NCBI RefSeq assembly: GCF_036785885.1
Contig: NC_092312.1
Span: forward strand, 16,138,001-16,202,000
Origin: Coffea arabica
Taxonomy: Eukaryota > Streptophyta > Magnoliopsida > Gentianales > Rubiaceae
Reading direction: 5' to 3'
Length of the DNA stretch: 64,000 nt
Below the pieces are notes generated by a model. That model saw only the letters and a program-made list of their open reading frames with translations. It was not told the origin of the DNA and ran no database searches. Each line of letters opens with the position of its first letter. The stretch's first letter is position 1. A program made the position numbers and the translations under genes. Positions 1 through 58,511 of this stretch are shown here, piece by piece.

Positions 1-1326
1 TGGTTCATTATTTTTTAAATAAGTTCAATTCTTGGACTTCCTTTTTTTTGCACATTGCTTTTTCATTTTTTTTTGTGTTCGTCCTAGATTAGATTAATAG
101 TTTAAATATACTTTCAACAGTAATTAATTTATAATCAGTTCCACAATTTAGATCTTAATTTTCTTTTTATGACGTTTGTATAACCTATAAAAGTGTTGGG
201 TATATCATAATTGTTAACGTGTCTAAAAGAAAATGCCTTCTTATATATACAAAACAATTAATGTCATTTTTATATACAAAAACAAGTAATGTCATTTTTA
301 ATGTGAAGTGCCTTATTGAATTTCACTTTGTGTATTTCAAGCTTCTCTGGCCTCCAAAGACGAAAATTCGCTGAGAAGATTTTGAGTGCCCTGCCCAGTT
401 TCTTTTTTTTTTTTTTTTTGATTTTGAAGTTTAACGACCGTTATACAACTTTCAAAATAAACAAATTTATTCTAATTTTTTTTTATAATTTTATAAACCA
501 AATCGCGGTCACTTTCACAAAAGTCATATTTTTCCATAAAAAACCAACTCTTGATGACTTTTCTCCATTATACGAACACAGTACTCATTTTTCCATAAAC
601 AAATTTATTTATTGGATAAAATAAAAATAAATTCATTTTTCAATAAAAAACACCAGTTTTTTATGACTTTCCTACATTATAAGAACAGAGTACCCATTTT
701 TTCATAAACAAATTTATTTATCGGATAAAATAAAAATAAATTCATTCTCCAATAAAATACCAGCTCTTTATGACTTTAGAATGAAGGGTTACAATCTCGC
801 TGTCTCTATCACCATCAACTTTTGACTCCCTACTTCTTCCATCCCACCCAACACCAGAACGAAAAAGATTTCACAAAAGATCTAATCTTGCATGAAATGA
901 TCAACTATAAAGCTTTATTAATATGCCAACCTTTTTTTAAAATTAAGAAACAAAATGTATCAATAAGAGACAAACAAATACAAAATATCATTTTGTTATT
1001 TTAATTAAGATACATATTTAATATACGTAGACAGAGCAAAACTATAATGAAACGAACAAATTTATCTCTCATTTGTATATAATTATTTAGAACTTGGCAT
1101 AAACAAGTGATTGCAACCCAATAATCTAGGAAAATTTATTGAATTTCACTTTGTGTGTTTCAAGCTTCTCTGGCCTCTAAAGACAAAAATTCGCTGACAA
1201 AAAAAGACTTGTAGAATACCTATACTAAAAAATATACTTTTCTACATAAATTATTATTTTGATTAGTTCAAAACTGGGCAGTGCATTTTATATTTCTATC
1301 GCGCGAAGCGCGTTCATGCCTCCTAG
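1..1326 (+). mobile_element. 3' part of a Helitron (neighbouring copy of the 6539-12386 element)
   Basis: This stretch is the same as 11061-12386, which is the 3' part of the full Helitron at 6539-12386. It ends with a hairpin (CGCGC, loop GAA, GCGCG at about 1301-1313) followed by TTCATGCCTC and CTAG, and the next base is T, as expected for a Helitron 3' terminus. The 5' part lies outside the window to the left. The inside is AT-rich with no credible gene. It has a near-tandem repeat of about 110 bp (about 500-775), built around 'aaatttattta' and 'ggataaaataaaaataaatt'. A 62-bp direct repeat (about 313-375 and 1136-1198) flanks this AT-rich core. What is seen is the identity and the terminus; the family assignment follows from Helitron rules. 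Confidence 0.85.
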
Positions 1327-1960
1327 TTGAGTGGAGAAGGTGAGCACTTTCGAGGGTCTGCTGCTGCTGCTGCTGCTTTTTTTTTTTTTACCCTATCAAT
1401 AGTGGACGTCGACGATGATCCGTTTTGCAGAGTTATTTATTCATTTATTGGGGTGACCAAACGCAATAGGGGATCCTCTTGACATGGGCATTTCTATTTA
1501 TTAAAAAAGGGGTAAAAAAATAAGAAAGTCTGTGTAATAAACCTATTTTACAGAAGAAAAATCTCTCGTAATTTCAAAATATACAATACAAAATATATAA
1601 TACGAAACCTCATACTTTGAACTAAATTATAAAGGTGACGGAATCCGATAAATTTAATGAAAATAAACGAAATAACCAAAATGCCCTGATATAATTAGGC
1701 AAAAAACAACTCAAAAATCATTTGTTTTATTCTCTAAATAGAGAGAATTGAGGGTTAAAAGGTAGAACAGGTATATTTGTTAAAAATTAGGTACAAAAAT
1801 ATTTTTTAAAATTCCAATAAGTCATTTCTGTTAAGTTTAACGGATTCTGTCACCTTTACAATTTAGTTCAAAGTACAGGGTATTGTGTCATACTATAGTT
1901 GGATCTCTAAAGCTCATGTTTGCGTTTAGGGTTTGGGCATTTCAATTGTCTGGTCACTTA
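1327..1960. repeat. Diverged copy of the HISN7 upstream region (segment X'), with a foldback MITE
   Basis: From 1327 on, the DNA matches 17597-18190, the upstream region of the second HISN7 copy, but with many more differences than the 11-kb repeat shows. It must therefore be an older duplicate. The match starts exactly at the Helitron end (CTAG at 1323-1326), so the break in homology is the Helitron insertion point. Inside, 'actttgaactaaattataa' near 1616 and 'acaatttagttcaaagt' near 1858 are inverted repeats of a foldback element of roughly 390 bp. Its right arm appears cut short here compared with 17770-18185. An identical copy lies at 12387-13020. No gene is seen. Confidence 0.75.
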
Positions 1961-2028
1961 TTCAATTTGGCAAAAACACTCAAGTCAAAATCAATATTGA
2001 ACCCTCTTCTAATAATCCCAATATCAAC

Positions 2029-2715
2029 GGCTCCGTTTGGATTTCTCATTTTTTGAAAAAATAAATTTTTCATATACAATGTTATGATAATATATACAAA
2101 CAAAAATAACTCAAAAAATACCACATCCATACAATATATAAAAATTAACTCCAAATATATAAAAAATAAAAATATATACTATATTTTCTTCCATCTATCA
2201 CCATAACCCATCACCACCATTCCCCCATTTCTCCTCTTTCCTTTCCCTCTCTCTTCCTCCTCCCTTTCCCTCCACATCTCACCTCTCCTCTTCCCCCCCC
2301 TTTCCAAATCTGTCCCTGGCTAGATCATGACCAAAAGGATCGCAATATGGTCGTGATGTCATAACTAAAGGTCTTGATTTGGTTTTGGCTAGATCTAGAG
2401 GGGGAAGAAAGGGAAGGGTAAGGAATGGCGGGGAAAGGGAGGGGAAGAGTGGAGGGGAGAAAAAAAAATGAGAAGGAAAGAGATGGAAGAAAAGGGAAGG
2501 AAGGAGCAAGAAGAAAGAGAAGGAGGAGGAAGTGGTGGCAATGGTGAGTGGTGGTAATTTTTAAAAAATATCACAAAAATTAGTGAGCCTTAAAAATATC
2601 CCAAAATATATCCCAAAAAACATCACAAGATCTATAATCAAAAGCTTTTCATATACACTATTACAGTAAAATATTTCAAAAATACTCTCAAAAAACAACA
2701 AATTCAAAGGGAGCA
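2029..2715. mobile_element. Foldback (hAT-like) non-autonomous element with polypyrimidine/polypurine arms
   Basis: The left end GGCTCCGTTTGGATTT and the right end, read in reverse complement as GCTCCCTTTGAATTTG, form imperfect terminal inverted repeats. Inside the ends come AT-rich arms ('catatacaatgttatgataa' on the left; 'catatacactattacagtaa' on the right). A C/T-rich tract (about 2218-2310) is then followed by a G/A-rich tract (about 2397-2545) that mirrors it. There is no coding capacity. The CCGTTTGG-type end is common in plant hAT-like MITEs; the superfamily is inferred, because no target duplication is clear. The identical copy at 13089-13775 belongs to the 11-kb repeat. Confidence 0.55.
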
Positions 2716-3194
2716 GACTTCGTGAGTTAGAAAATATTCATAGGATCAAGTGTTGATAATTGATTTGAAAGGAACACAATAAGGATCACTTATAAAAATA
2801 GAGCGGAAAAATGTGAATATATCTTCTCTATGAGATGTTTTAATTTTCAATAACATGTATTTGAAAATTTATCTCAATTAACAAAATTTTGAGGTCACTA
2901 GAGGTGGGGTAACCTGGACTAGTCAAGGGGTACGAGTTTAGATAAATTCATAATGCTAGAATCCTTTGCAATCATGTTTGTTTTTTTTTTACCATAAAAA
3001 ATTTACGATAAAAATAATGGGTAATAATTTTTTGCATTTCAACACCACTCGATGATATCCAAAATTACTCTTTTTGGCACTTAACAATCTATATTAAAAA
3101 ATTATTGTGATTTTAATTAAAAACAGGTTCTTAAGTATAGAAAAGAGATTTTTTTTAGCTCGCTGATAAGTATCGACTATCAAAATATTTATAG

Positions 3195-3480
3195 TCTAGG
3201 GAGAGAGAAGGAGGAGGAAAAGAAGAAAGATGAGAGAGGGGGGAGGAGGAGGGCGAGTAGTGGTGGCGATGGATGATGTAAAATTTTTAAAAAAATACCT
3301 CAAAAAAATTATAATTATTAAAATATTTCAAAATATATTTTAAAAATACCTCTAAAAATAATCCAGAAAACATCTAAAGTAAAAAATTTTCATATAATTT
3401 TCATATACACAATTACTGTAAAATTTTTTAAAAATACCCAAAAAAAAAATCCATCCGTCTGATAACAAACAGATGCTCTC
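3195..3480. mobile_element. Right half of a related foldback element
   Basis: A G/A-rich tract (about 3200-3280, 'gagggcgagtagtggtgg') is followed by AT-rich sequence with 'catataattttcatatacac' and 'aattactgtaaaat'. This is the same order as the right half of the 2029-2715 element. I see no matching left half. It recurs at about 14255-14540. The neighbouring stretches 2716-3194 and 3481-4408 hold no recognisable gene; they are the downstream flank of the truncated HISN7 copy. Confidence 0.4.
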
Positions 3481-4190
3481 TGATTACTTGGCACTGTGCA
3501 CACTATAAAGAGTTTAATCTCTGCATGACATGAAAATAAGATAAAAGGCAAACAAATAATGTAATTTTGTACTTATAAATACTTGGAGAACTCAATGTAC
3601 TACTGCACAAGCAATTAAAAATATACATATTAGGTCTATATACAACTCAAAGCAATGGACACAGTTTTCTTTGGAGAGGAGTCACAGGATAAACTTTCCC
3701 AAGAGTATTGTAGTACAGTCCTCAATCATCACTTGATCCTAGATCTTTACTTTCTCTAAAAGAGAGAGGACTACAAATACTCCAAGTTAGCTGTTGAAAG
3801 CAAGCATCTTTAACCTCAAATCAATTAGTACATAGTCTCCCATAATAAATCTGAAACAGATTAAGATCCTTAATGGCTTGTTATTATCTAAATCATATTG
3901 TGGCTTCTTCAATCGGAAATTGCTGTAGAGCAGATCCATGAACAATGGTTTTTCCAATATACGGCAAACTGCCTTACAAAGGAAGTGAAAGAGGATATCT
4001 ATCAACTACAACAGAAGCACAACTCTAAGATGCTTGTAAGGAAATAAAGCATGTCCATCAAAAGAGCCTAAAAGCAATGCAAGGCAACAGTTTTAAGAAC
4101 AAAAAATCTTCAAGAACACATGGAAGAAAAACAAAGATAAACATAAGCTGGATCGTTAACCATCTTCATGTGCTGCATCTTCATATAGTA

Positions 4191-4404
4191 TGCTTGTGCA
4201 TGTATACAACACACAGCAACCACCAGTAACCGATACCATGACAGTAGAGCAACATTCTCAAAACATTTATAGAAATTTATATGCATCTGTCTTTTTTTGT
4301 GCTTGTGCATGTATGCAATGCACAGCAACCACCCTTAACTGATACCATGACAGGTTACGCAACATTCTTAAACGTTTATAGAAATTTATACGCATCTATC
4401 TGAA
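4191..4404. repeat. Two-copy 109-bp tandem repeat at the broken 3' end of HISN7 copy 1
   Basis: The sequence beginning 'tgcttgtgcatgtat' at 4191 repeats at 4300 with a few differences (both include 'cacagcaaccacc' and 'gataccatgaca'). The same pair is present at about 15251-15464 in the second unit. On the minus strand the repeat holds a faint likeness to the Gly-Cys-Asp-Cys-Tyr stretch expected just after the last recognised HISN7 exon, but no open frame supports it. I treat that as unproven. Confidence 0.6.
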
Positions 4405-4408
4405 TGTT

Positions 4409-6449
4409 TCTTGGACATAGAGGATGAACCTTATCCCTGACTCGAGCAAAAGCCATCTCAGCATCTCCATTGAATAGATGTGGGCTGGTTGTGTACCTAA
4501 GACAGAATAATGGAAATATTAAAGACAGAAATTCAGGTCAATACCTATTTGTTTGCTGGAACAAATTAAAAAGTTTTGAAAGAACAATGGATGCAACACA
4601 AGGTAAGAGTGGAGAAATAGCATGATCGGATGCATAAAACCTACAGATAAGCTTGTGAGAGTTTTGCACAGCCACGTGTAGAAATATCTTGTCCATTTAA
4701 AGTAGTTTTCCTCCCATTTAATCCAACCCATCTCTCTCTCAAAATAGGCTGATCAATTATGCCAAGAACCTGAAAGAAAGAGAAGACGTCTATATTTTGT
4801 TGGTTATATTTTAACATGATTATCCTTCACAGTTCTCTTTAACATGATGGCTGCTTGGCACAATCTTAGGTGATTCAACTAAAAAAAAAAAAAAAGAAGA
4901 AAGAATTTAGACAAATTTACACAGCAGTACAATCCAAAGTCAATAACTCAGGAAGTCCTAATGAACTAAGGTCATTGTAGATGTACAGGTATTTGGGCAT
5001 TCTACAAGTAACAAAAGTCAGGTGTAAAGATAATATAGCTCACTATCTAAAAAGAGTAAACAAATGTATTGGCTGTCTTCATTCGCCCCATGTAAAATGA
5101 TAGTTGTTTCAGGACTATATTCTGGTGTCCTGATGAGAAATTTCTTGCTCAACTATTTGTCTTGGATTCTACCCAGAAAATTTCCCCGAGAATGTACTTG
5201 CTTTGTAAGAGACGAGATACATGGCCATTGACCAAAGTATTTTTTGAGGTAATGGCATATTAACAAGTTACTGATGGACAAGATATTAACAGAGGTTAAT
5301 AGCTCATCTCTCATACCGGTTTTCCTTGGTATAATAGAGCAATAAGAGTCCCAAATAATGGTTTTCCTGTATTGCAAGCAAAAAAATAATATGCTCAGTG
5401 AACTGAATTAGTTGAAAACAATAGTCAACAGTAAAAGGGGGAAAAGGAGCAGTACCTGTGATGAAGCTCTTTGTTCCATCAATTGGATCCAATACCCAAA
5501 CATAGTCCGCAACTTTCTCCTTACACCTCCAACCCTTCTCTTCTCCATAACTGCAATTAGCATTTCATTACATAATTTTTGGGAATAACATTTTACAAGG
5601 CCTCGAACAACAACCATCAAAGATCCAAGTTGGTTGCCAAGGGTTATTTTGGTTAATTAAAATCAAGACATTGAGAACACCAAATACGATAAATTCCTCC
5701 TCCCTTTTTTTTAATGGGATATTCACTCGTGAAAAACCCAGAGATGATTATTTCACGAGAGAGCAAACACGACTATTTTGGGAAGGCAGGTTTTCCATCC
5801 AGTTTAAATACGGAACTTTATCCATTCATAATCAAAGTACCAGTCCAATTTCTAGTATGAACAAGGATAAAAAGTAAAACCATAAATCAACCGGCAATGT
5901 CCTACCAAACTAAGAGAACATACATTGCATGGAAAGGAAAGTTCTCTTGTATAATCCTGACCATTGCCTCTTCAGCTGCTTGATCAGCAATTGTAACAGG
6001 ACCTAAAAGTATCACAAAAAACCTTCAAATCTTAACTGCCCGCTGCAAATAAAAAATTGCAGAGAATGATCAGGAGGAGAATACTACTGACTTAAATCCT
6101 CTTTATCGAGGATTTCGAAGCTCTTTCGGAAGTACTGGCGGATAACTTGGCCGGCGGCGTCGGCCAGCTGGTTAGCAACAGCTGCGAAGCGATCGAGCTG
6201 ACAATCGTCGAGCCCTAACTCAACAGATTGAGCATTATTGGAAAGTGCAGACTTGGAAGACATCCTTGCGGAGGTGAGGACTTTGGATTGTAGAGAAGCT
6301 GAGAGTAGATTGGGAGGCGAACGAAAAATTGAAGAGAAGTTGGTGAGATTGTTGGAAGGAGAAAGGAAAGGAGAAGAGAAAGAAGGGAGAGAAGAGTTCC
6401 GATTCGGGTTAACAAGGAACCGAGGGTTGGAAAGCATTTGGAGCTGCAT
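4409..6449 (-). CDS. HISN7: HISN7/IMPL2-like histidinol-phosphate phosphatase, copy 1, 3' exons missing
   Basis: Inositol-monophosphatase-fold enzyme of plastid histidine synthesis (histidinol phosphate to histidinol). Six exons read cleanly on the minus strand: 6092-6449, 5924-6002, 5456-5550, 5317-5366, 4645-4769, and 4496 down to about 4409. All joins are GT-AG with matching phases. Exon 1 starts MQLQMLSNP, with a Ser/Asn/Pro-rich stretch typical of a plastid transit peptide, then QLADAAGQVIRQYFRK. Later exons give TIADQAAEEAM, IYGEEKGWRC and the metal-binding signature WVLDPIDGTKSFITG, then GTLIALLY, IDQPILRERWVG, and YTTSPHLF. After RVRDKVH the protein sequence loses its family likeness. 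The C-terminal part of the family, with the second metal-binding Asp, is not found anywhere in 1-4408. The gene is therefore probably inactive or makes a truncated product. A Helitron sits 89 bp upstream of the start codon. Confidence 0.8.
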
Positions 6450-6717
6450 GTGAATAAGGGCTTTAAAGAGGCGGCAAAAAAAGGTTGAGAGAAATGGAGA
6501 AAGCTGATTTTGAAGAAAAGGAGAAACAGAGCAGCTTATCAACATAATCAACATAAGTAGATAAAGTGCGAAGGGTTTCGTCGTTCCGCTCGTGATTTCG
6601 TCGTCCTCACGTGACCCCCTCATCCTTTCCGCGCATCGCGCGGGATCCTCCTCACCTCTGCCTGTTCTTTTTTTTTTTTTTTTGTTTTTTTTTTCTAACC
6701 CTAAGAGTATCGTATCT

Positions 6718-7460
6718 TATCTCCCGCCGCTCTTCCTCCTGCTCTCCCTTCTTTCCCCTTTGCTCTCCTTGCCCTATCCGTATACCTCCATTACTCCCTT
6801 TCCTCCTTCCCTTTACTCTACAACATCATTCCCATTTGCAGAGACAGCGCCGCCCCTCCTCTCCCTTGCCTTTTCTTTTCTTTTTTTTTTTTAATTTCTG
6901 GACCTAATATCTGCTTAGCCTCCATCATTTTCATTAGCAATAGGTTAATTTCTGCTTTCTTCTGCCAACTCCATTCAGTTACTCCCTTTCCTCCTTCCCT
7001 TTACTTTACATTCTCTCCCGCCGCTCTTCCTCCTGCTCTCCCTTCTTTCCCCTTTGCTCTCCTTGCCCTATCCGTATACCTCCATTACTCCCTTTCCTCC
7101 TTCCCTTTACTCTACAACATCATTCCCATTTGCAGAGACAGCGCCGCCCCTCCTCTTCCCTGCCTTTTCTTTTTTTTTTTTTTTAATTTCTGGACCTAAT
7201 ATCTGCTTAGCCTCCATCATTTTCATTAGCAATAGGTTAATTTCTGCTTTCTTCTGCCAACTCCATTCAGTTACTCCCTTTCCTCCTTCCCTTTACTTTA
7301 CAGCATCATTCCCATTTGCAGAGACAGCGCCGCCCCTCCTCTCCTCTGCCTTTTCTTTTTTTTTTTTAATTTCTGGACCTAATTTCTGCTTAGTCTCCAT
7401 CATTTTCATTAGCAATAGGTTAATTTCAGCTTTCTTCTGCCAACTCCATTCAGTTGAACC
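6718..7460 (+). repeat. Pyrimidine-rich tandem repeat block inside the Helitron
   Basis: A roughly 294-bp unit starting 'ctcccgccgctcttcctcc' (6721 and again 7015) is repeated, followed by a shorter third copy from about 7273. The shared core runs from 'actccctttcctcc' through 'cagagacagcgccgcccct' and 'aatttctggacctaat' to 'caactccattcagtt'. The copies differ mainly in length of the T runs, so the amplification is fairly recent. Open frames here are simply due to low complexity. The block looks like a leader or promoter region of a captured gene that was then expanded, but that is inference. Confidence 0.7.
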
Positions 7461-8036
7461 CGTTTTCTTTTTAAAGCTTGGTGATTTTCCTCTTTTCCTT
7501 TGATTTTGCTTTTCTCGTTGGCTTGTGAAGGCCACCAAATTTCTCATTCTCTCTTAAATGTGGTCTCAAACAAGCTTTTCCATTCCAAATGTGGGCGGCT
7601 CCGCAGAAACCTAATCCACAGTAAGCTCTTAAACCTTCGGCCGCCGCAGCTTTCTTCTTCTTCTTTTTCTTCCCCGTGCTGCGCTGTTTCGGTACATTTG
7701 GTTCTTGCAAGGAAACAAATAAAGCACATGTGCCATGAGGTAAGAACCAAGAATATTTCAATTTTTGTTTGAATTAGAGTAAATTGATTTTTTGATTTGA
7801 TTAATCCTGTCCAGGTTTGAAATGGATAGGGTTTGGCAATGTTTAAGAATCCATGGCCAGGATAGTGCCGAGATTCATGGGTGTTGTGTAATCAGTTGAG
7901 CCCGTCAGAATTTGTTGCAAGAGATCGTCTTGGAGAGGCAAGTGCTTGTTTATTTTGATGGTATATTGTGGATTGTAGCTTGAGATAATTCTGTACAAAT
8001 AGTTCTTTAATTCAACTATTTCTTGATGCTATGCAG

Positions 8037-9988
8037 ATTCGATGTTCGGATGCTATTCATTGACTTTTCGAAGGGTTTCCTGAGGTACATGTTTTCCGTT
8101 TTTGCATTTCCTGGTCGCAATATGGCGACAATGGTGTTGGGAATTTGGTCTAATTTACTGGTTTTTAATAGCTTGGCCTGTTGCATTTGGTGGTTTGGTG
8201 TTTTTTTTGTTGGTTTCCTCTTCTTTCTCATTTTTTGCAACAAATGAAATGCATATTTCAAATTTTGAGATCTTGGTTTACTCGTTGTGTGAGGAAATAA
8301 TTAGGTTGAATGATTAGTTGCATTATCAATGAAATAATTTGGAATTGTATGTGGATAAGTATCAGTTGAGTTGAAGGTTAGTAATTATGTGACCAATAAT
8401 ATTTCCAGTTCAATGTTCCACTAATCTACCGCTTTTAGCAGTTTTCTTCGTCAAACTTCCTCTATCTTTTCTCCCATTCCTACCTCTCTCATTCTCCTAC
8501 TTCTGCTTTCTTTCCTCCCCCTCTCGTTGTATCAAAAGATTTTGCTATGTTTCTATTTGTCTCATTTTCTTCCCCTCTTAGATTTGAGTTCTGTTTTGTT
8601 AGATTTGCTTTTGATGATTTTAAAGGTTTCCTTCTCTTGTGCCTTTTAGATGGTTACATGAATTTTGATTATTGTTTGTATTTTTGTTATCACATCATTC
8701 TGGGATGCTTAGCTTCCCTTTTTTTTCTTTTTTTTCTATATTTTTTCTTTTTAGTCCATGGTTTTTCTTTTTCCTCTCAAATTTTCAACAAAGCATATAT
8801 GGCCAAAGAAAGCAAAACTGGAGAAGTTGTTGCTTTAAAGAAGATACGCATGGACAATGAAAAATAAGGGTTGTTGTTATTCTACCCAATTTCTTATTTT
8901 CTTAGCTTATGACATTTTAATTTCCTTAGTGGATGAATGGTTATGCCTGCTCTTTTTAGAACACTCATAATTTTTTCTTGTAGTTTCCTGTAACTGCCAT
9001 GCATGAAATAAAAATTCTAAGGAAGTTGTAGCATGAAAATGTCATTAAACTGAAAGAGATTGTGGCCTCTCCTGGTACTCATCCTTCTCCATATGTTCAG
9101 AGTGGTTATTTAATTCATAAACATCAAACATATACTATATGTTTTGTTGTCTTACATATAATAAACTCTTTTTCAGATCATGAGGTAGATAAGCAAGTGA
9201 ATCAAGGTAACTAGACGTGCAGAAATTTTCAAGTTTGTGGTTCCTGTTTCTGTAAGAATTCAATGCCCCTGAACTCCCAAATACTGAGATCGAAAATGGT
9301 ATTTTGTTTTTGAAATGTATAAGGTAATAGATACAAAGGCAGTATTTACATGATTTTTGGGTATATGGACCATAGCTTGACGGGACTTGCTGATTGTCCT
9401 GAATTGAGATTTACAATTCAACATATCAATGTATGTGACCTTGGACAAGGAGGATTTACTCATTATAATGAGCATCCATCACTTTTTTTTTGTCAACAAA
9501 GCATCCATCACTCAACTTGTTCTAATAATATGTATTTGTAGTGTTATATGAAGTAGCTGCTTACTGTTCTTCACTACTGTCATCTCAATAACGTGCAGAT
9601 ATCAAAGGTTAACTTTTTTATTCTTTTCTAAACATATTATCTAGGATTTTAGGTGTGCATATGATACTATGTTCTGGTTTTTGGTTTGGCAGGCTCCAGT
9701 ATGCTTATAGATAAAAGGGAAACCTGAAGCTAGCAGATTTTGGACTACCATAATCATTCTCCAATAACCACAGTCCATGGATGATGATTTTCCCTTATAG
9801 CTGACCCATGTCTTTGATATTATAACTTAATTTTCAATCAAGAAAATTTACTCATCTATGTATTGAGCAGACCTTCAGAGTTGCTTCTTGGAGCTACGAA
9901 ATATGATTCGGCAGTAGACATGTGGTTAGTTGGCTGTATTTCTGCTGAACTTTTGCATGAAAAACAAATCTTACCTAGAAAAAATGAG
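8037..9988 (+). pseudogene. CDKC-type cyclin-dependent kinase gene fragment, decayed, captured by the Helitron
   Basis: Exon-sized pieces in kinase order, separated by non-coding gaps with splice-like edges. They are a weak trace of exon 1 at about 8037-8091; 8793-8866 (YMAKESKTGEVVALKKIRMD, the ATP-anchoring VALKK); 8984-9077 (FPVTAMHEIKILRKL, a stop, then HENVIKLKEIVASPG); about 9345-9430 (MDHSLTGLADCPELRFTI); 9542-9609 (CYMK, stop, LLTVLHYCH); 9693-9750 (LIDKRE, then KLADFGLP, the DFG motif); and about 9868-9988 (PSELLLGATKYDSAVDMW, then VGCISAELLHEKQILPRKNE). Plant CDKC kinases act with cyclin T on RNA polymerase II. The HRD catalytic loop is lost through what looks like a 7-base deletion near 9596, and several stops occur. 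Introns are kept, so capture was from genomic DNA. Confidence 0.8.
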
Positions 9989-12386
9989 GTTAGGCATATA
10001 CCTTGAGTTGTTGTACTATTTTTTCAGCCTTTTTTTCATTATTTTTTAAGAAAAAAGCTGTCTTATCTTAATTTTTGATTTATCTTATCTTATTTATCTA
10101 TCAAGGAATTTTGAAAGAGTTAAGTAGATGGTGTTTCGTCTTTTTCTTACAATTGCTTTTCATGAAATGAACTTGGATGATTGTCATGATTATTTATTAG
10201 ATTGGTTCAGTTTGTATGCACTAGAAGAAAGGATATGGACCATTGTTGGCTTTTAGAGCATCCCAAGTTCACAAGCTTTCTATTTCATTTAACTTTTTTA
10301 GCACATCAAAGCTAAATGATTACAGACTCTGAATGATTACACTTATTCTTCTTGAATGATTTTGAATGCTTTTGACTGAATAAATAGTGTGTGTACAGAC
10401 TAGGAATTCATTGGTTATTTATGCTTATGCATTTTATGATTATGTTTCTGATTTTTTGCTGCAGAATGCTGAACTGAGTGCTCATGTGGCTAAGCAGTAA
10501 AGAGGAAGGAATCTGTTGTCCTGTGTTAGGCATTCATGTCGTTTGATTATGAGTGCAGTTTCATTGGATGTTTTTTAGTTAATGTGTATTATGTAGTTAT
10601 AGTTGTTAGTGGATTCAAGCACAGATTCTGTAATAGCTAGGTTGTTGCCATTTCAGTTTGTATATACCTTACTCTTTTTATATGTATTTATGGATCATGA
10701 TGTTTTGTACATTTTTTGTATTCCATGTAGTTAGTGACTTTCTCTGAACATATTTTGTTCTATTTGCTTAGATAGATGTTTCTGCTTGAACATTGGTTGA
10801 ATGATGGTAAGGGTACAATGTGAAAATGGTATATTAGAAGCTCGGGAAGATGTTCTTTCCTAGCTCATGAAGTTGAAACCCACTCAATCGCTGATGAATA
10901 GCAGTCACAATTTGCAAGTGAACATTGATCATATAATTTCTGAAGCATTCTTGATGGGAGAAAAAGACTTTGGGGTTAAGAATCAAGAAATCATATAGAG
11001 AAAAAGTTGAAAGTAATGTAAGGCGAGATTATAGAGCTTTCCTAAAATTGATTCTTTATTTGGTTCATTATTTTTTAAATAAGTTCAATTCTTGGACTTC
11101 CTTTTTTTTGCACATTGCTTTTTCATTTTTTTTTGTGTTCGTCCTAGATTAGATTAATAGTTTAAATATACTTTCAACAGTAATTAATTTATAATCAGTT
11201 CCACAATTTAGATCTTAATTTTCTTTTTATGACGTTTGTATAACCTATAAAAGTGTTGGGTATATCATAATTGTTAACGTGTCTAAAAGAAAATGCCTTC
11301 TTATATATACAAAACAATTAATGTCATTTTTATATACAAAAACAAGTAATGTCATTTTTAATGTGAAGTGCCTTATTGAATTTCACTTTGTGTATTTCAA
11401 GCTTCTCTGGCCTCCAAAGACGAAAATTCGCTGAGAAGATTTTGAGTGCCCTGCCCAGTTTCTTTTTTTTTTTTTTTTTGATTTTGAAGTTTAACGACCG
11501 TTATACAACTTTCAAAATAAACAAATTTATTCTAATTTTTTTTTATAATTTTATAAACCAAATCGCGGTCACTTTCACAAAAGTCATATTTTTCCATAAA
11601 AAACCAACTCTTGATGACTTTTCTCCATTATACGAACACAGTACTCATTTTTCCATAAACAAATTTATTTATTGGATAAAATAAAAATAAATTCATTTTT
11701 CAATAAAAAACACCAGTTTTTTATGACTTTCCTACATTATAAGAACAGAGTACCCATTTTTTCATAAACAAATTTATTTATCGGATAAAATAAAAATAAA
11801 TTCATTCTCCAATAAAATACCAGCTCTTTATGACTTTAGAATGAAGGGTTACAATCTCGCTGTCTCTATCACCATCAACTTTTGACTCCCTACTTCTTCC
11901 ATCCCACCCAACACCAGAACGAAAAAGATTTCACAAAAGATCTAATCTTGCATGAAATGATCAACTATAAAGCTTTATTAATATGCCAACCTTTTTTTAA
12001 AATTAAGAAACAAAATGTATCAATAAGAGACAAACAAATACAAAATATCATTTTGTTATTTTAATTAAGATACATATTTAATATACGTAGACAGAGCAAA
12101 ACTATAATGAAACGAACAAATTTATCTCTCATTTGTATATAATTATTTAGAACTTGGCATAAACAAGTGATTGCAACCCAATAATCTAGGAAAATTTATT
12201 GAATTTCACTTTGTGTGTTTCAAGCTTCTCTGGCCTCTAAAGACAAAAATTCGCTGACAAAAAAAGACTTGTAGAATACCTATACTAAAAAATATACTTT
12301 TCTACATAAATTATTATTTTGATTAGTTCAAAACTGGGCAGTGCATTTTATATTTCTATCGCGCGAAGCGCGTTCATGCCTCCTAG

Positions 12387-15300
12387 TTGAGTGGAGAAGG
12401 TGAGCACTTTCGAGGGTCTGCTGCTGCTGCTGCTGCTTTTTTTTTTTTTACCCTATCAATAGTGGACGTCGACGATGATCCGTTTTGCAGAGTTATTTAT
12501 TCATTTATTGGGGTGACCAAACGCAATAGGGGATCCTCTTGACATGGGCATTTCTATTTATTAAAAAAGGGGTAAAAAAATAAGAAAGTCTGTGTAATAA
12601 ACCTATTTTACAGAAGAAAAATCTCTCGTAATTTCAAAATATACAATACAAAATATATAATACGAAACCTCATACTTTGAACTAAATTATAAAGGTGACG
12701 GAATCCGATAAATTTAATGAAAATAAACGAAATAACCAAAATGCCCTGATATAATTAGGCAAAAAACAACTCAAAAATCATTTGTTTTATTCTCTAAATA
12801 GAGAGAATTGAGGGTTAAAAGGTAGAACAGGTATATTTGTTAAAAATTAGGTACAAAAATATTTTTTAAAATTCCAATAAGTCATTTCTGTTAAGTTTAA
12901 CGGATTCTGTCACCTTTACAATTTAGTTCAAAGTACAGGGTATTGTGTCATACTATAGTTGGATCTCTAAAGCTCATGTTTGCGTTTAGGGTTTGGGCAT
13001 TTCAATTGTCTGGTCACTTATTCAATTTGGCAAAAACACTCAAGTCAAAATCAATATTGAACCCTCTTCTAATAATCCCAATATCAACGGCTCCGTTTGG
13101 ATTTCTCATTTTTTGAAAAAATAAATTTTTCATATACAATGTTATGATAATATATACAAACAAAAATAACTCAAAAAATACCACATCCATACAATATATA
13201 AAAATTAACTCCAAATATATAAAAAATAAAAATATATACTATATTTTCTTCCATCTATCACCATAACCCATCACCACCATTCCCCCATTTCTCCTCTTTC
13301 CTTTCCCTCTCTCTTCCTCCTCCCTTTCCCTCCACATCTCACCTCTCCTCTTCCCCCCCCTTTCCAAATCTGTCCCTGGCTAGATCATGACCAAAAGGAT
13401 CGCAATATGGTCGTGATGTCATAACTAAAGGTCTTGATTTGGTTTTGGCTAGATCTAGAGGGGGAAGAAAGGGAAGGGTAAGGAATGGCGGGGAAAGGGA
13501 GGGGAAGAGTGGAGGGGAGAAAAAAAAATGAGAAGGAAAGAGATGGAAGAAAAGGGAAGGAAGGAGCAAGAAGAAAGAGAAGGAGGAGGAAGTGGTGGCA
13601 ATGGTGAGTGGTGGTAATTTTTAAAAAATATCACAAAAATTAGTGAGCCTTAAAAATATCCCAAAATATATCCCAAAAAACATCACAAGATCTATAATCA
13701 AAAGCTTTTCATATACACTATTACAGTAAAATATTTCAAAAATACTCTCAAAAAACAACAAATTCAAAGGGAGCAGACTTCGTGAGTTAGAAAATATTCA
13801 TAGGATCAAGTGTTGATAATTGATTTGAAAGGAACACAATAAGGATCACTTATAAAAATAGAGCGGAAAAATGTGAATATATCTTCTCTATGAGATGTTT
13901 TAATTTTCAATAACATGTATTTGAAAATTTATCTCAATTAACAAAATTTTGAGGTCACTAGAGGTGGGGTAACCTGGACTAGTCAAGGGGTACGAGTTTA
14001 GATAAATTCATAATGCTAGAATCCTTTGCAATCATGTTTGTTTTTTTTTTACCATAAAAAATTTACGATAAAAATAATGGGTAATAATTTTTTGCATTTC
14101 AACACCACTCGATGATATCCAAAATTACTCTTTTTGGCACTTAACAATCTATATTAAAAAATTATTGTGATTTTAATTAAAAACAGGTTCTTAAGTATAG
14201 AAAAGAGATTTTTTTTAGCTCGCTGATAAGTATCGACTATCAAAATATTTATAGTCTAGGGAGAGAGAAGGAGGAGGAAAAGAAGAAAGATGAGAGAGGG
14301 GGGAGGAGGAGGGCGAGTAGTGGTGGCGATGGATGATGTAAAATTTTTAAAAAAATACCTCAAAAAAATTATAATTATTAAAATATTTCAAAATATATTT
14401 TAAAAATACCTCTAAAAATAATCCAGAAAACATCTAAAGTAAAAAATTTTCATATAATTTTCATATACACAATTACTGTAAAATTTTTTAAAAATACCCA
14501 AAAAAAAAATCCATCCGTCTGATAACAAACAGATGCTCTCTGATTACTTGGCACTGTGCACACTATAAAGAGTTTAATCTCTGCATGACATGAAAATAAG
14601 ATAAAAGGCAAACAAATAATGTAATTTTGTACTTATAAATACTTGGAGAACTCAATGTACTACTGCACAAGCAATTAAAAATATACATATTAGGTCTATA
14701 TACAACTCAAAGCAATGGACACAGTTTTCTTTGGAGAGGAGTCACAGGATAAACTTTCCCAAGAGTATTGTAGTACAGTCCTCAATCATCACTTGATCCT
14801 AGATCTTTACTTTCTCTAAAAGAGAGAGGACTACAAATACTCCAAGTTAGCTGTTGAAAGCAAGCATCTTTAACCTCAAATCAATTAGTACATAGTCTCC
14901 CATAATAAATCTGAAACAGATTAAGATCCTTAATGGCTTGTTATTATCTAAATCATATTGTGGCTTCTTCAATCGGAAATTGCTGTAGAGCAGATCCATG
15001 AACAATGGTTTTTCCAATATACGGCAAACTGCCTTACAAAGGAAGTGAAAGAGGATATCTATCAACTACAACAGAAGCACAACTCTAAGATGCTTGTAAG
15101 GAAATAAAGCATGTCCATCAAAAGAGCCTAAAAGCAATGCAAGGCAACAGTTCTAAGAACAAAAAATCTTCAAGAACACATGAAAGAAAAACAAAGATAA
15201 ACATAAGCTGGATCGTTAACCATCTTCATGTGCTGCATCTTCATATAGTATGCTTGTGCATGTATACAACACACAGCAACCACCAGTAACCGATACCATG

Positions 15301-15468
15301 ACAGTAGAGCAACATTCTCAAAACATTTATAGAAATTTATATGCATCTGTCTTTTTTTGTGCTTGTGCATGTATGCAATGCACAGCAACCACCCTTAACT
15401 GATACCATGACAGGTTACGCAACATTCTTAAACGTTTATAGAAATTTATACGCATCTATCTGATTGTT
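12387..15468. repeat. Second copy of segment X' and the two foldback elements; no gene
   Basis: This stretch mirrors 1327-4408. It holds the older duplicate of the HISN7 upstream region (12387-13020, with its foldback MITE), the foldback element at 13089-13775, and the right-half foldback element at about 14255-14540. After that comes unassigned AT-rich DNA up to the broken 3' end of HISN7 copy 2, including the 109-bp tandem pair at about 15251-15464. Confidence 0.75.
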
Positions 15469-17507
15469 TCTTGGACATAGAGGATGAACCTTATCCCTGA
15501 CTCGAGCAAAAGCCACCTCAGCATCTCCATTGAATAGATGTGGGCTGGTTGTGTACCTAAGACAGAATAATGGAAATATCAAAGACAGAAATTCAGGTCA
15601 ATACCTATTTGTTTGCTGGAACAAATTAAAAAGTTTTGAAAGAACAATGGATGCAACACAAGGTAAGAGTGGAGAAATAGCATGATCGGATGCATAAAAC
15701 CTACAGATAAGCTTGTGAGAGTTTTGCACAGCCACGTGTAGATATATCTTGTCCATTTAAAGTAGTTTTCCTCCCATTTAATCCAACCCATCTCTCTCTC
15801 AAAATAGGCTGATCAATTATGCCAAGAACCTGAAAGAAAGAGAAGACGTCTATATTTTGTTGGTTATATTTTAACATGATTATCCTTCACAGTTCTCTTT
15901 TACATGATGGCTGCTTGGCACAATCTTAGGTGATTCAACTAAAAAAAAAAAAGAAGAAAGAATTTAGACAAATTTACACAGCAGTACAATCCAAAGTCAA
16001 TAACTCAGGAAGTCCTAATGAACTAAGGTCATTGTAGATGTACAGGTATTTGGGCATTCTACAAGTAACAAAAGTCAGGTGTAAAGATAATAGAGCTCAC
16101 TATCTAAAAAGAGTAAACAAATGTATTGGCTGTCTTCATTCGCCCCATGTAAAATGATAGTTGTTTCAGGACTACATTCTGGTGTCCTGATGAGAAATTT
16201 CTTGCTCAACTATTTGTCTTGGATTCTACCCAGAAAATTTCCCCAAGAATGTACTTGCTTTGTAAGAGACGAGATACATGGCCATTGACCAAAGTATTTT
16301 TTGAGGTAATGGCATATTAACAAGTTACTGATGGACAAGATATTAACAGAGGTTAATAGCTCATCTCTCATACCGGTTTTCCTTGGTATAATAGAGCAAT
16401 AAGAGTCCCAAATAATGGTTTTCCTGTATTGCAAGCAAAAAAATAATATGCTCAGTGAACTGAATTAGTTGAAAACAATAGTCAACAGTAAAAGGGGGAA
16501 AAGGAGCAGTACCTGTGATGAAGCTCTTTGTTCCATCAATTGGATCCAATACCCAAACATAGTCCGCAACTTTCTCCTTACACCTCCAACCCTTCTCTTC
16601 TCCATAACTGCAATTAGCATTTCATTACATAATTTTTGGGAATAACATTTTACAAGGCCTCGAACAACAACCATCAAAGATCCAAGTTGGTTGCCAAGGG
16701 TTATTTTGGTTAATTAAAATCAAGACATTGAGAACACCAAATACGATAAATTCCTCCTCCCTTTTTTTTTAATGGGATATTCACTCGTGAAAAACCCAGA
16801 GATGATTATTTCACGAGAGAGCAAACACGACTATTTTGGGAAGGCAGGTTTTCCATCCAGTTTAAATACGGAACTTTATCCACTCATAATCAAAGTACCA
16901 GTCCAATTTCTAGTATGAACAAGGATAAAAAGTAAAACCATAAATCAACCGGCAATGTCCTACCAAACTAAGAGAACATACATTGCATGGGAAGGAAAGT
17001 TCTCTTGTATAATCCTGACCATTGCCTCTTCAGCTGCTTGATCAGCAATTGTAACAGGACCTAAAAGTATCACAAAAAACCTTCAAATCTTAACTGCCCG
17101 CTGCAAATAAAAAATTGCAGAGAATGATCAGGAGGAGAATACTACTGACTTAAATCCTCTTTATCGAGGATTTCGAAGCTCTTTCGGAAGTACTGGCGGA
17201 TAACTTGGCCGGCGGCGTCGGCCAGCTGGTTAGCAACAGCTGCGAAGCGATCGAGCTGACAATCGTCGAGCCCTAACTCAACAGATTGAGCATTATCGGA
17301 AAGTGCAGACTTGGAAGACATCCTTGCGGAGGTGAGGACTTTGGATTGTAGAGAAGCTGAGAGTAGATTGGGAGGCGAACGAAAAATTGAAGAGAAGTTG
17401 GTGAGATTGTTGGAAGGAGAAAGGAAAGGAGAAGAAAAAGAAGGGAGAGAAGAGTTCCGATTCGGGTTAACAAGGAACCGAGGGTTGGAAAGCATTTGGA
17501 GCTGCAT
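15469..17507 (-). CDS. HISN7: HISN7/IMPL2-like histidinol-phosphate phosphatase, copy 2, 3' exons missing
   Basis: Near-identical to copy 1. Exons are 17150-17507, 16982-17060, 16513-16607, 16374-16423, 15705-15829, and 15556 down to about 15469. The start MQLQMLSNP and the metal-binding DPIDGTKS signature are kept. One visible protein change in exon 1 is Asp for Asn in the stretch SALSDNAQ. Like copy 1 it stops resembling the family after RVRDKVH and lacks the C-terminal exons, so the truncation is older than the 11-kb duplication. Unlike copy 1 its native upstream sequence (17597 onward) is intact, so this copy is more likely to be transcribed from the original promoter. A full-length gene, if one remains, would have to lie outside the window. 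Confidence 0.8.
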
Positions 17508-17596
17508 GTGAATAAGGGCTTTAAAAAGGCGGGAAAAAAGGTTGAGAGAAATGGAGAAAGCTGATTTTGAAGAAAAGGAGAAACAGAGCAGCTTAT

Positions 17597-18190
17597 TGAG
17601 TGGAGAAGGTGAGCACTTTCGAGGGTTTGTTGCTGCTGCTGCTGCTTTTTTTTTTCCCGGTATCAACAGTGGACGTCGACGATGATCCGTTTTGCAGAGT
17701 TATTTATTCATTTATTGGGGTGACGAAACGCAATAGTGGATCCTCTTGATATGGGCTTTTCTATTTATTAAAAAAGGGGTAAAAAAAAAGAAAGTCTCGT
17801 GTAATAAATCTAATCGGTAGAAAAGCCTCTTATAGTTTTAAAATATACAATATGACATCTCGTACTTTGAACTAAATTATAAATGTGACAGAATCTGATA
17901 AACTTAATGAAAATAGACGAAATGACCAAAATACCCTGATGTAATTAGGCAAAAAACAATTCAAAAATTATTTGTTTTATTCTCTAGATAGAGAGAATTG
18001 AGTGTTAAGAGGTAGAACAGGTATATTTATTGTCATTTCTGTTAAGTTTAACGGATTTCGTCATCTTTACAATTTAGTTCAAAGTACGGAGTGCTGTATT
18101 GTATATTTTGAAATCGCGAAAGACTTTTCTGTATATTAAATTTATCACAGGGGACTTTTTTTATATTTTACCCTTAAAAAAAGACGTACT
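17597..18190. repeat. HISN7 upstream segment X: Helitron empty site and foldback MITE
   Basis: The sequence runs unbroken from the HISN7 leader ('gcagcttattgagtgg') and matches the DNA just 3' of the Helitrons at 1327 and 12387. It contains a GCT/GTT-type short repeat near 17630. At about 17770-18185 is a foldback element with long inverted arms of over 100 bases: left 'actttgaactaaattat', right 'acaatttagttcaaagt', and outer ends 'aaaaaaggggtaaa' and 'ttttacccttaaaaaaa'. The long arms suggest a Mutator-like MITE, but I cannot define a target duplication. 18191-18552 is AT-rich DNA in which I see nothing. Confidence 0.65.
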
Positions 18191-29282: not shown

Positions 29283-30361
29283 TCTATATCTATATAAATT
29301 TGAGAAGGGATTTTTAGCAACAAGCCTCCACGTATCTTCCCACTACCAATTCCATTTTTCTAGCATTTCACATTTAATTTAATTCATAAAATATATTCCT
29401 CTCAACTTCTACATCACCTCTGCGCATTTGAAATTGTTGGTTACTTTTTAACATCATTTCATTTCAAATTGTTGATTAATGTGCATGTTATTCTATTTGA
29501 ACTTCAACCCATCACGTTTCTGATTGCCTTGCATTGTTTATGATTCTACAACAATTAAAACTTCTATAAGACCATAAGAAGAGATAACAATTATAACATC
29601 CTTTCATGCTTTCTTATTAATTTAAATAAATAAGATTATTTACACTCCATTTTTGTTATTCACACTTCAATAATCATTTTGATCATATAATTTTCATTAG
29701 TTAGACTATATGATAAAACAAATGGTGCAATTACAAATAATAAAAAATGGAGGGCAAATAACATTTTCTTAAGTAAGAAATGACTTCTATACCTTTATAA
29801 TTTAATAAAGTAGTGGCTCTGCTTATATAGGAATTTGGTTTAAAATTTATTAGTGGGAGGGTAAATAAAAAAAAATATTGCCAAACATAGTAAAAGTAAA
29901 AAAGTAAATGATAATATTTTATCTTTTAACTTAGTAATCCTAAATAAAATGGCAAAATTAAATAGAAAACAAAAAGGAAACAATGTCGTGGATTTAAAAA
30001 ATCAAGAATGGTACCATTCATGAAATCGAAATTATGGAATCACTAAATAAAAAACAAAGTACTACTAGCCTTTTAACGTCGAAATTTTTTTGAAATATTC
30101 ATTTTTGATAAAAAAAAAATAATGATAATAACAACACCAATTCTACCAAAAATTTTTAAAAAAAGTAACATTATAGTTTAAGAGAAAGATATAGAACATT
30201 CAGCCCTAAAATACTACTTAATTTGTATATATCTGGCCCAAATTTGACATTAAATTTGAATAAGAGTGCAAAACCCAAACACTAAGGATAAGTTTTGGTA
30301 TCATTAATTATTTTATGTATTCTTATTGCTGCCTTCATATGTAAATATGTATTTGCTATGT

Positions 30362-46941: not shown

Positions 46942-47422
46942 TGATGCGACTGCCAAAAATCAGATCCGAGCTGACCTGTAGCAAGCCGGGCCAAGTCGTC
47001 CTGGGAGGATTAGCTGAGCTACTGGTCCTGTGAAGGAAAGGGGGAATTGCGGGACTGGCGTCCCTGAAATAACTCCGACGATCAAGTCAGTAAGCTTGTC
47101 CACAAAGTGATAGTTTAGAGTACTCGTGTTTGCGTACCTTGTATTGTCTCTAGGCATGGTTTATATAGGGCAGAGTGGGTTGTAGTTTCCTTGTGGAAGT
47201 CAGAATCCCCGTAGGGTTCGGAGTCTTCTTAGGGTTTCGTGCGGCGGCTCCTACAAGTTCGGAGGCGGCGGCCCATAGGCCCATCTCAGGGAGCGACAGG
47301 TAAGGCCGAGCTGGCATCCACATGCCGAGCTAGCGCCTGCGAGTCGTGAGGTCTCCACCGTCGACCTGACGCGTACAACCTGCCGAGCTGACACGTGTCA
47401 CGTGCAGATTTGTCCCACTACA
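46942..47422 (-). repeat. 3' LTR of the Tat-lineage element
   Basis: On the minus strand it starts TGTAGTGGGAC and ends GGCAGTCGCATCA. It includes a TATA box (CCCTATATAAACC in minus orientation, near 47160). A short purine-rich tract (CAAGGGGGCTAG on the minus strand) lies just outside, as expected for plus-strand priming. Confidence 0.92.
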
Positions 47423-47692
47423 CTAGCCCCCTTGAGTCTAGAGTCACTGATGAGTCACGTGGGTCTGGACCAAACTTCGAAGCGTCACGTCGGCTTCGTG
47501 CGGGACCCACGATCCCACGATCACGTACCTTCTCCTAAAAACTGCCACGTCCGCCGTCGTAACCGTCACTTCAAGGGTCACGTCCTTCATGATGGAGGTT
47601 TTGTCAGCTCAAGCGTTTTCCAAGGTAACCGCCCCCTTGCAATAAATTCGAATTTCTTCCTCAGGACTCTTCGGCTTCCCGCCCAGGGAGCC

Positions 47693-56108: not shown

Positions 56109-56589
56109 TGATGCGACTGCCAAAAACCAGATCCGAGCTGACCTGTAGCAAGCCGGGCCAAGTCGTCCTGGGAGGATTAGCCGAGCTACTGGTCCTGTGA
56201 AGGAAAGGGGGAATTGCGGGACTGGCGTCCCTGAAATAACTCCGACGATCAAGTCAGTAAGCTTGTCCACAAAGTGATAGTTTAGAGTACTCGTGTTTGC
56301 GTACCTTGTATTGTCCCTAGGCATGGTTTATATAGGGCAGAGTAGGTTGTAGTTTCCTTGTGAAAGTCAGAATCCCCGTAGGGTTCGGAGTCTTCTTAGG
56401 GTTTCGTGCGGCGACTCCTACAAGTTCGGAGGCGGCGGCCCATAGGCCCATCTCAGGGAGCGACAAGTAAGGCCGAGCTGGCATCCACATGCCGAGCTAG
56501 CGCCTGCGAGTCGTGAGGTCTCCACTGTCGACCTGACGCGTACAACCTGCCGAGCTGACACGTGTCACGTGCAGATTTGCCCCACTACA
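56109..56589 (-). repeat. 5' LTR of the Tat-lineage element
   Basis: Partner of 46942-47422 with about 98% identity. Its outer end is followed directly by the second CAGGC and then by the PPR gene's leader, so its outer edge lies 187 bp before that gene's start codon. The element is transcribed away from the PPR gene. Confidence 0.92.
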
Positions 56590-56776
56590 CAGGCCTAGAA
56601 AACTTATTGTTGGCCCACTTTCAAAACATCTCGAAATCATTCCCGCGCGCTGAAGGCTCAGTGCCCCAGCCGGCCAGCCGTAAAACAAAAGCATTCCCGC
56701 CGGCAGCTGCCATCCTGAAGCTGTTAGTATACTGCTGTCTTCTGCCCTCCGAGGCTCCATTTCCAAGTACAATAAC

Positions 56777-58511
56777 ATGGAAATCGCTACTATGGCTCAA
56801 GCTCTGCAGCTCCATGCCCAAGTCCTCAAGTCTGGCTGCCAAAACCATAATCCTAGTACCGAACAAACCCTCAGCAAGCTCTTTACCTTCTCAGCTCTCT
56901 CGCCCTCAGGTAGCTTGTCCTACGCCCGCCTTATCCTTAATTCCCTCCAAACCCCAAATTCTTATTACTATAACACGATTATGATTCGAGCCTATTCCGA
57001 CTTAACCCACCCTGCCCAAGCCATTAGCCTATTTTTAGCAGCAATGCAGAATCCGCCATCTCCTGGTACACCTCGACCGGACAAGTTCACTTGTCCCTTT
57101 GTCCTCAAAGCTTGCTCCAAATTACGTCAAATCCCTCTTGGAGAACAACTCCACGGACTAGTCTGCAAGTTGGGTTTTGGGCCGGATATGCATATAAGCA
57201 ATGCATTGATTCGTATGTATTCAGCTGGCGGTGTTCCGGACCTCGCGTTCAAGGTGTTTGACAAAATGCTCGAGAGAGATGTGGTGTCTTGGACTTCTAT
57301 AATCGATGGGCTTGTGGATAATGATAAACCCGTTAAAGCTATAGCTTTGTTTGAGCACATGTCGGAAAATGACGTTGAATGTAATGAAGCAACGGTTGTT
57401 TCGGTTCTTAGAGCTTGTGCTGATACTGGTGCTCTTAGTATGGGTAGAAAAGTTCATGATCTGGTTAGGGAGAAGAAGCTTATTAGTTTGAACGGTAAAG
57501 TTAGCACGGCTCTCATAGACGTGTATGCGAAATGTGGGTGCATAGATGGTGCGAAGGAGGTATTTTCTGAAACAGTGAACAAGGATGTTGTTACATGGAC
57601 TGCAATGATTGCTGGCCTTGCCATTCATGGGCAGTGTGAAGAGGCTACGGAATTGTTTGATAAGATGAAGGGTCTTGATATAAAGCGAAGATGAGAGGAC
57701 ATTGACTGCGCTTTTATCAGCTTATAGGAATGGGCATATGGTGAGTGAAGGCTTGGCTTGCTTCAGAACTATGAAGAAGAAGTATAAGATCAGGCCTAAA
57801 ATGCAGCATTATGGTTGTGTTATAGACATGCTTGTTCAAGTTGGGCATTTAGAAAATGCTGAGACATTTATGAATAAGATTCCTGTTGAACCGGATGCTG
57901 TCCTTTGGAGGAGCTCGATAAGGGCCTGTCAAATTCATGGAGATGTAGAGAGGGGTGAACGTCTGATGAAGCATTTTGAACTATTGAAATTGGATTCCAA
58001 TGACTCTGGAGCTTATGTTGTTCACCGGAATATCCGTGTGTCTGAGGGTAAATGGAAGGAGAATGGCAAAACAAGAGCATTGACCAATCGAAAAAAACTT
58101 CTGAGGGCCTCAGGGTATAGTCGAACGGAGATCAACGGTGAAATTTATGAATTTACCACTGGTGAACTGGGGCATGTTGAAGTGGAAGAAATTATTGGGA
58201 AAATGGGTGAAATAGCATTGAACTTGAGCTGTGAAGGTTATGATCCAAAACACTCAGATCTGTCACTTGATGATGAGGAGAAAGCCTTTGAACTATTTCA
58301 CCACAGCGAGAAACTTGCGGTTTCATTTGGCCTGATTAAAACCAGCCCAGGAACCTCCATAAGAATTGTAAAAAATTTCCGCCCTTGTGAGGATTGCCAT
58401 TCTTTCATGAAAATACTGTCAAAGATTTATCAAAGAGATATATTTCTCAGGGATCATGTACGATTCCACCATTTCAGGAATGGAGAATGTTCTTGTGGGA
58501 ACTTTTGGTAA
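56777..58511 (+). pseudogene. DYW-type PPR protein gene with one frameshift (about 575 codons)
   Basis: PLS-class pentatricopeptide proteins bind organelle RNA and guide C-to-U editing; the DYW domain is the deaminase. The first frame (56777-57694) starts MEIATMAQALQLHAQVLKSG and has PPR repeats such as NALIRMYSAGGVPDLAFKVF, DVVSWTSIIDGLV and STALIDVYAKCGCIDGAKEV. It ends IKRR-stop. The second frame resumes within the same repeat (DERTLTALLSAYRNG) and runs to 58511. One extra base at about 57686-57690 ('aagcgaagatgag') explains the switch. The second part has the E region, then HSEKLAVSFGL (the His-x-Glu zinc/catalytic motif), CEDCH and a C-terminus CSCGNFW in place of the usual DYW. The gene is either a recent pseudogene or carries a sequencing error. 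The intronless layout is usual for the family. A retrotransposon sits in its promoter. Confidence 0.88.

Follow-up and report, generated by a model that had tools for sequence, protein, structure and literature searches.

The closest systems described so far are the gene-carrying Helitrons of maize and the bat element Helraiser/Helibat1. In the portions of two maize reports available to us (PMC2267711, PMC3288121), Helitrons begin with 5' TC, end with 3' CTAG, lie at A/T junctions and carry gene fragments; vacant sites exist in other lines, and adjacent, nested and multi-terminus elements occur. Helraiser/Helibat1, in the available part of its description (PMC4778049), has the same 5'-TC/CTAG-3' ends and A/T target and a palindrome 11 nt before the 3' end, and is a reconstructed element that encodes RepHel, the Rep-helicase protein. 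Here we describe a Helitron, H1, in a 64,000-nucleotide stretch of Coffea arabica DNA (the window; C3:16138001-16202000 of the 1.198-Gb, 131-contig host genome assembly that was searched, with contigs labelled C1, C2 and so on). The coffee element resembles those of maize in all the points just listed; it differs from them in its terminal sequences, host and cargo, and in that its empty sites are a paralogue and alleles inside one assembly. It has the ends and the A/T target of Helraiser and likewise a palindrome shortly before the 3' end (here 14 nt before it), and differs from it in that no RepHel was found. Overall, we are nearly certain that a non-autonomous Helitron of a genome-wide family, carrying a captured piece of a kinase gene, inserted by an IMPL2-like gene and was later duplicated by unequal crossing-over.

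The insert spans 5,848 bp (6539-12386) and is absent from the otherwise matching sequence at 17595/17596. Read directly, the filled site runs ...gagcagctta/TC at its left edge (6538/6539), and at its right edge the hairpin CGCGCGAAGCGCG and a CTAG ending at 12386 are followed by ttgagtgg. When the flanks of the insert are joined and compared with the empty site, the alignment crosses the junction without a gap there. The insertion lies between A and T and made no target duplication, as judged both from the window and from C4, taken as the other haplotype, where the same empty site is present (L052). In the window self-comparison the left flank (1-6539) is 99.7% identical to 11061-17596 and the right flank (12387-12838) is 87% identical to 17596-18028, which excludes a chance match. 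These results confirm the insert and empty site observed in an earlier note made from the window sequence, which had placed a Helitron at 6539..12386 on the strength of the unbroken sequence at about 17586-17603. By every structural feature compared here the insert is a Helitron without RepHel: it has a 5' TC, a CGCGC-GAA-GCGCG hairpin followed by TTCATGCCTCCTAG (that is, CTRR with an upstream hairpin), a T directly after its 3' end, and dispersed copies with both ends. It is a good but ordinary example, and nothing here is a new kind of element.

The ends recur throughout the genome. The exact 5' pattern TCWACATAAGTARWNAAAG has 117 matches, against 3 for the reversed control. We read 46 of these 117 5' ends (30 + 16; the second batch also held one repeat and three places not fitting the exact pattern), and the sequence before TC differs at most of them. 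Upstream homology was seen for the two window copies (H1 and a second copy, H0) together with the C4 locus, and for pairs that look allelic (such as L022/L027, L023/L028 and L041/L049). One upstream flank is also common to the 5' ends of L025, L042 and L071, a trio probably embedded in a larger repeat. At the other end, a query of the last 90 bases has 87 candidate places; of these, 40 were scored, with 84-100% likeness, and all 40 reach CTAG. The query itself stops at CTAG, so the 3' edge was judged from the flanks: T comes next in 16 of the 16 3' ends fetched, followed by differing sequence. Thus the same ends with different flanks, for which the earlier note had proposed to look, were found at many of the places read, both 5' and 3', while homology across the edge was seen among the 5' ends read only at duplicated or allelic-looking loci and in the one trio. 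The suggestion that the element might found a separate family holds in so far as it is distinct from the TCTATATC elements of the window; the family is large in the genome, however, and was not founded by this copy.

Two other copies have the same interior and are 96% alike: C8:39491132-39496620 (5,489 bp; L013) and C4:74145085-74150629 (5,545 bp; L014). The C7 counterpart of the C8 copy is empty, as are similar sites on C16 and C3, where a T-rich repeat obscures the exact base. The C4:74.15M copy likewise has an empty counterpart, on C3: the left flank ends at base 326 and the right flank starts at base 327, with the insertion at T/T. Three further cargo-bearing copies (two on C14, one on C2) start with TCAACATAAGTAGATAAC after different flanks; their next few hundred bases differ, and their 3' ends are among the family matches. 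Both ends and the cargo are thus common to six loci. We also observed two places where family 5' ends of the same orientation lie close together, at C2:56536209/56536308 (99 bp apart) and C3:1943836/1944357 (521 bp apart).

An empty paralogue fixes the insertion, not necessarily the terminus of the element. The claim that both boundaries are known to the base stands for the start of the insertion (6539) and for the 3' end (12386), but the 5' end of the element family lies at 6548, nine bases inward. At 6539-6547 the element's first nine bases are given a second time, and both C3 copies carry this repeat. A query of the first 122 bases from 6539 has 20 matches in the genome: the two C3 copies alone align from its base 1, and the remaining 18 set in at base 4-16. 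The start of other copies is TCWACATAAGTA, which corresponds to window base 6548. Moreover, the element-free C3 counterpart of the C4:74.15M copy joins the flanks to the base. The element ends, read from this filled and empty pair together with the 3' CTAG, are therefore the equivalents of the TC at 6548 and the CTAG at 12386.

We take the nine extra bases to be a small duplication of the terminus. One could instead suppose that 6539 is the true end, and that the lineage moved with its 5' terminus already stuttered (TCAACATAA repeated). Compared with the empty site, the insertion does begin at 6539, and exact 8-base stutters occur at C4:25158569, C8:5761901, C9:49083798 and C12:25670901; at three of these loci, whose upstream flanks differ, TCAACATA is directly followed by TCAACATAAG, and at one TCTACATA is followed by TCTACATAAG. 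At L077, the sole stutter locus whose 3' end was fetched, the downstream sequence does not look Helitron-like, so that this stutter is either part of the element or post-dates insertion. For the same reason we rejected, for L077, the idea that 8-bp stuttered ends arose by insertion into another Helitron family's end. However, the two closest relatives (L013 and L014) have no stutter and start at the inner TC. The place also looks locally unstable, since on the C4 allele TCAACA is followed by four TAA units and, after them, by another Helitron (N, described below). A loose stutter pattern has 12 matches versus 7 in its control, which limits the support to the exact cases. A transposed stuttered end is therefore rather unlikely, and we keep 6548 as the family terminus.

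The copies in and next to the window have a history of their own. H0 and H1 are identical over 5,848 bp, so the duplication is recent, and 1-4092 and 11061-15152 are without a difference. C3 carries three copies of the host gene: L0 (left of the window), L1 (to 6538) and L2 (to 17595). L0 becomes similar only from the equivalent of 3501 onward. L1 sides with L2 against L0 as far as 3898 and with L0 against L2 from 4093 on, with a single switch. Both the chimeric L1 and the 11,060-bp duplication of Helitron and gene appear best explained by one unequal crossover between an L2-type and an L0-type copy within 195 bp. The earlier note missed the second identical copy, ending at 1326, and the recent duplication of the left flank in an 11-kb unit.

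Two other explanations of the duplicated tract were considered. The edges of the insert might be breakpoints of a segmental duplication and not ends of a transposable element, given that the duplicated tract stops at the same base as the claimed 5' edge. This is hardly conceivable, because these ends are found again at unlinked loci, between different flanks, two unrelated insertions (L013 and L014) have empty counterparts, and the switch between parental copies falls inside the gene. The window duplication might also be an artefact in which the assembly placed two haplotypes in tandem; the two units are indeed very similar, and both haplotypes seem present in the assembly. C4, however, is assembled apart and is 99.3% identical to C3 over 7.7 kb and 99.65% over 2.6 kb, so that C3 and C4 would be alleles here, two haplotypes of one chromosome. 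It has one Helitron copy at the locus and the same empty site 5.2 kb further on. The middle copy, moreover, is chimeric, following L2 on its left and L0 on its right and changing over once, as unequal crossing-over predicts, and an assembly artefact is accordingly improbable. Unequal crossing-over is the explanation we retain.

Adjoining the empty site, the minus strand holds exons for a protein of the inositol-monophosphatase family, which we take, from the exon sequences, to be IMPL2/HISN7-like. One exon matches PF00459 above the cut-off (1.5e-9) and two below it; one more exon and the open reading frame (ORF) of the first exon gave no match. The empty junction is 88 bp away from the first in-frame ATG (17507). 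The paralogue with the Helitron in front of it lies at about 4379-6449. At L0 and L1, but not at L2, the Helitron stands between the gene and its upstream sequence, an arrangement that may affect expression of the host gene.

Gene capture by the element, as claimed in the earlier note, was borne out. A cargo of ~1.7 kb (8583-10310) matches an identifiable kinase gene on C14, with exons and introns alike. Introns are known in the captured genes of maize Helitrons. The C14 locus, where the gene was read in part, also has the preceding and following kinase exons with open frames. Two C14 exons match Pfam Pkinase, and the best PDB matches of the joined exons are CDK12, CDK13 and CDK9, a group for which we take CDKC to be the plant name. 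C13 carries a probable allele of this gene. Within H1, the ORF over the kinase piece had no Pfam match.

We suggest the following order of events, which, like the action of RepHel in trans, we infer from the observations above. A lineage ancestral to H1 would have picked up the 1.7-kb CDKC-type kinase piece before the present insertion. The Helitron, a member of a multi-copy family and lacking a RepHel of its own, would then have transposed with RepHel supplied in trans. Its target would have been an A/T that marks the 5' border of an IMPL2-like gene, one of a tandem pair, and lies ~90 bp upstream of that gene's presumed start codon. The two haplotypes would next have split, after which unequal crossing-over between the paralogous host genes would have duplicated Helitron and gene on C3; also after the split, the different Helitron N would have come to lie in the 5' end of the C4 Helitron. 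The locus is thus a well-resolved case, with an insertion, an empty site on both haplotypes, a cargo with its matching gene and a copy history, and one in which a Helitron would have spread by unequal crossing-over of a host gene instead of by its own movement.

Several observations weigh against this account. The right flanks of the filled and empty sites differ by 13% and the left flanks by 0.3%, a disparity accounted for only by an older duplication. The nine extra 5' bases may have been gained before, during or after insertion. No Rep or helicase match to Pfam was found in five ORFs (each at least 110 aa) overlapping the element (short exons lay outside this search), and the element is therefore taken as non-autonomous. 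Absence of RepHel is usual in non-autonomous Helitrons; it denies autonomy, not Helitron membership. Rep domains are numerous in the genome (150 scored of 763 candidates). A RepHel copy with both family ends was looked for and not found. A C12 copy has the family 5' end, a Rep domain ~7.6 kb inside that runs into a PIF1 helicase, and an open 923-codon frame matching Helitron_like_N and PIF1, but over 17.3 kb no 3' end could be recognised. Rep domains also lie 9-10 kb upstream of two family-type 3' ends (C9 and C7); the ~6.5 kb of sequence read above each contained no family 5' end. We therefore rejected the C12, C9 and C7 loci as a proven partner, since at none of them were both family ends recognised in the stretches read.

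Helitrons have been reported to prefer insertion near other Helitrons (PMC12477314, available part of the text). At C4:16272556-16278114 (L011, L012), the 5' end of the C4 copy of H1 contains N, another Helitron, of about 5.55 kb. The 3' end of N, CACCGCGCGGTGCGCGGTGTTCTCCTCCTAG, is directly followed by TAAGTAGATAAAG, which is the family 5' end from base 7 onward, and on the left twelve bases of TAA repeats separate TCAACA from N. For the 3' end of N, 40 scored places match, 38 of them reaching CTAG; for its 5' region the number of scored places is also 40. The right junction is repeated, with TAAGTA joined to other Helitron-type 3' ends, at C2:25767686, C11:13216535, C17:43151166 and C18:8231678, each preceding a different family member. 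Hence five loci have the 3' end of a foreign Helitron joined to the same base of the family 5' end (base 7; TCWACA, then TAAG). Near misses occur as well: at L044 a Helitron 3' end with hairpin lies 3 bp outside the family 5' end, and in the C12 copy a CTAG without a clear hairpin lies 6 bp outside it. Among N-type ends, 3 of 15 fetched are directly abutted by a Helitron end.

These junctions raise the possibility, which we put forward as a tentative lead and hold to be somewhat doubtful, that the family 5' terminus is a preferred landing site for other Helitrons. The raw junction pattern does not exceed its reversed control (6 matches versus 10), and the case for a landing site rests on the flanks: at 5 of the 6 places a Helitron-type hairpin end lies on one side and family subterminal sequence on the other. 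Four of the five nested cases are known from the right junction alone, and at C11 the 4.5 kb upstream showed no left junction. TCWACA shortly before an N-type 5' end was tried as a mark of nesting and rejected; it has 29 matches (control, 1), of which, in the letters displayed, only C4 fits a family 5' end and the rest resemble other repeats. Such landings, if real, would silence or exchange 5' ends, and could explain the different 5' regions in copies with the same cargo and 3' end. The base-7 junctions would be a sharper form of the reported preference for Helitron neighbours, and they fit the adjacent and nested Helitrons described in the available parts of the maize reports (PMC2267711, PMC3288121). 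In any event, the loci are concrete places at which to ask whether Helitron 5' ends attract other Helitrons. A text search of the literature for the motif TCAACATAAGTA found it in 6 papers; the 5 that were listed concern other subjects. Head-to-tail Helitron junctions, CTCCTAG followed by TTAACATAT, were also seen at L102, L105 and L106. At L083 (C12:14013100-14013320) another Helitron-like 5' end, TCAACATATATAG, begins ~18 bp past the 3' CTAG of the copy there.

Table 1. Positions of the Helitron, its parts, the host gene and the duplication in the window
Feature	Position	Strand	Basis
Helitron H1 without RepHel, 5,839 bp; 5' TCAACATAAGTAGATAAAG..., 3' hairpin and CTAG	6548..12386	+	Empty sites; family ends
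Extra 9 bp, TCAACATAA, a copy of the element's first nine bases; within the insertion relative to the empty site	6539..6547	+	Absent from the empty site and before most other 5' ends read
3' end ATCGCGCGAAGCGCGTTCATGCCTCCTAG; hairpin at 12360-12372, stem CGCGC/GCGCG, 14 nt before the end	12358..12386	+	Direct reading; family 3' ends
Tandem repeats (~294 and ~186 bp) within the element's 5' part	6717..7455	+	Window self-comparison
Captured CDKC-type kinase gene piece, exons with introns, decayed	8583..10310	+	88-91% to C14:13365785-13367754
Empty site (A/T)	17595..17596		Unbroken gagcagcttattgagtgg at 17586-17603
Inositol-monophosphatase-family gene exons	15439..17507	-	Pfam PF00459; ORF reading
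One repeat unit (11,060 bp) of the tandem duplication; the match of 11061-17595 to 1-6538 stops at the empty site	1..11060		Self-comparison; copy comparison
3' part of the second, identical Helitron H0, which starts ~4.5 kb left of the window's first base	1..1326	+	H0/H1 comparison
Interval of the inferred unequal crossover behind the duplication	3898..4093		Left: L1 follows L2; right: L1 follows L0

Elsewhere in the window, the TCTATATC-type Helitrons at 29283 and 32006 have a Helitron-like 5' TC in common with H1, but no match to it in the window self-comparison. Their two 5' ends are 84% alike over 114 bp, and a candidate 3' end (hairpin, CTAG, then TT) lies at 34059. Direct repeats at 46942-47423 and 56109-56590 (482 bp, 98% alike) flank long minus-strand ORFs resembling a retrotransposon polyprotein. 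Two overlapping plus-strand ORFs in different frames at 56684-58511 look PPR-like by eye.

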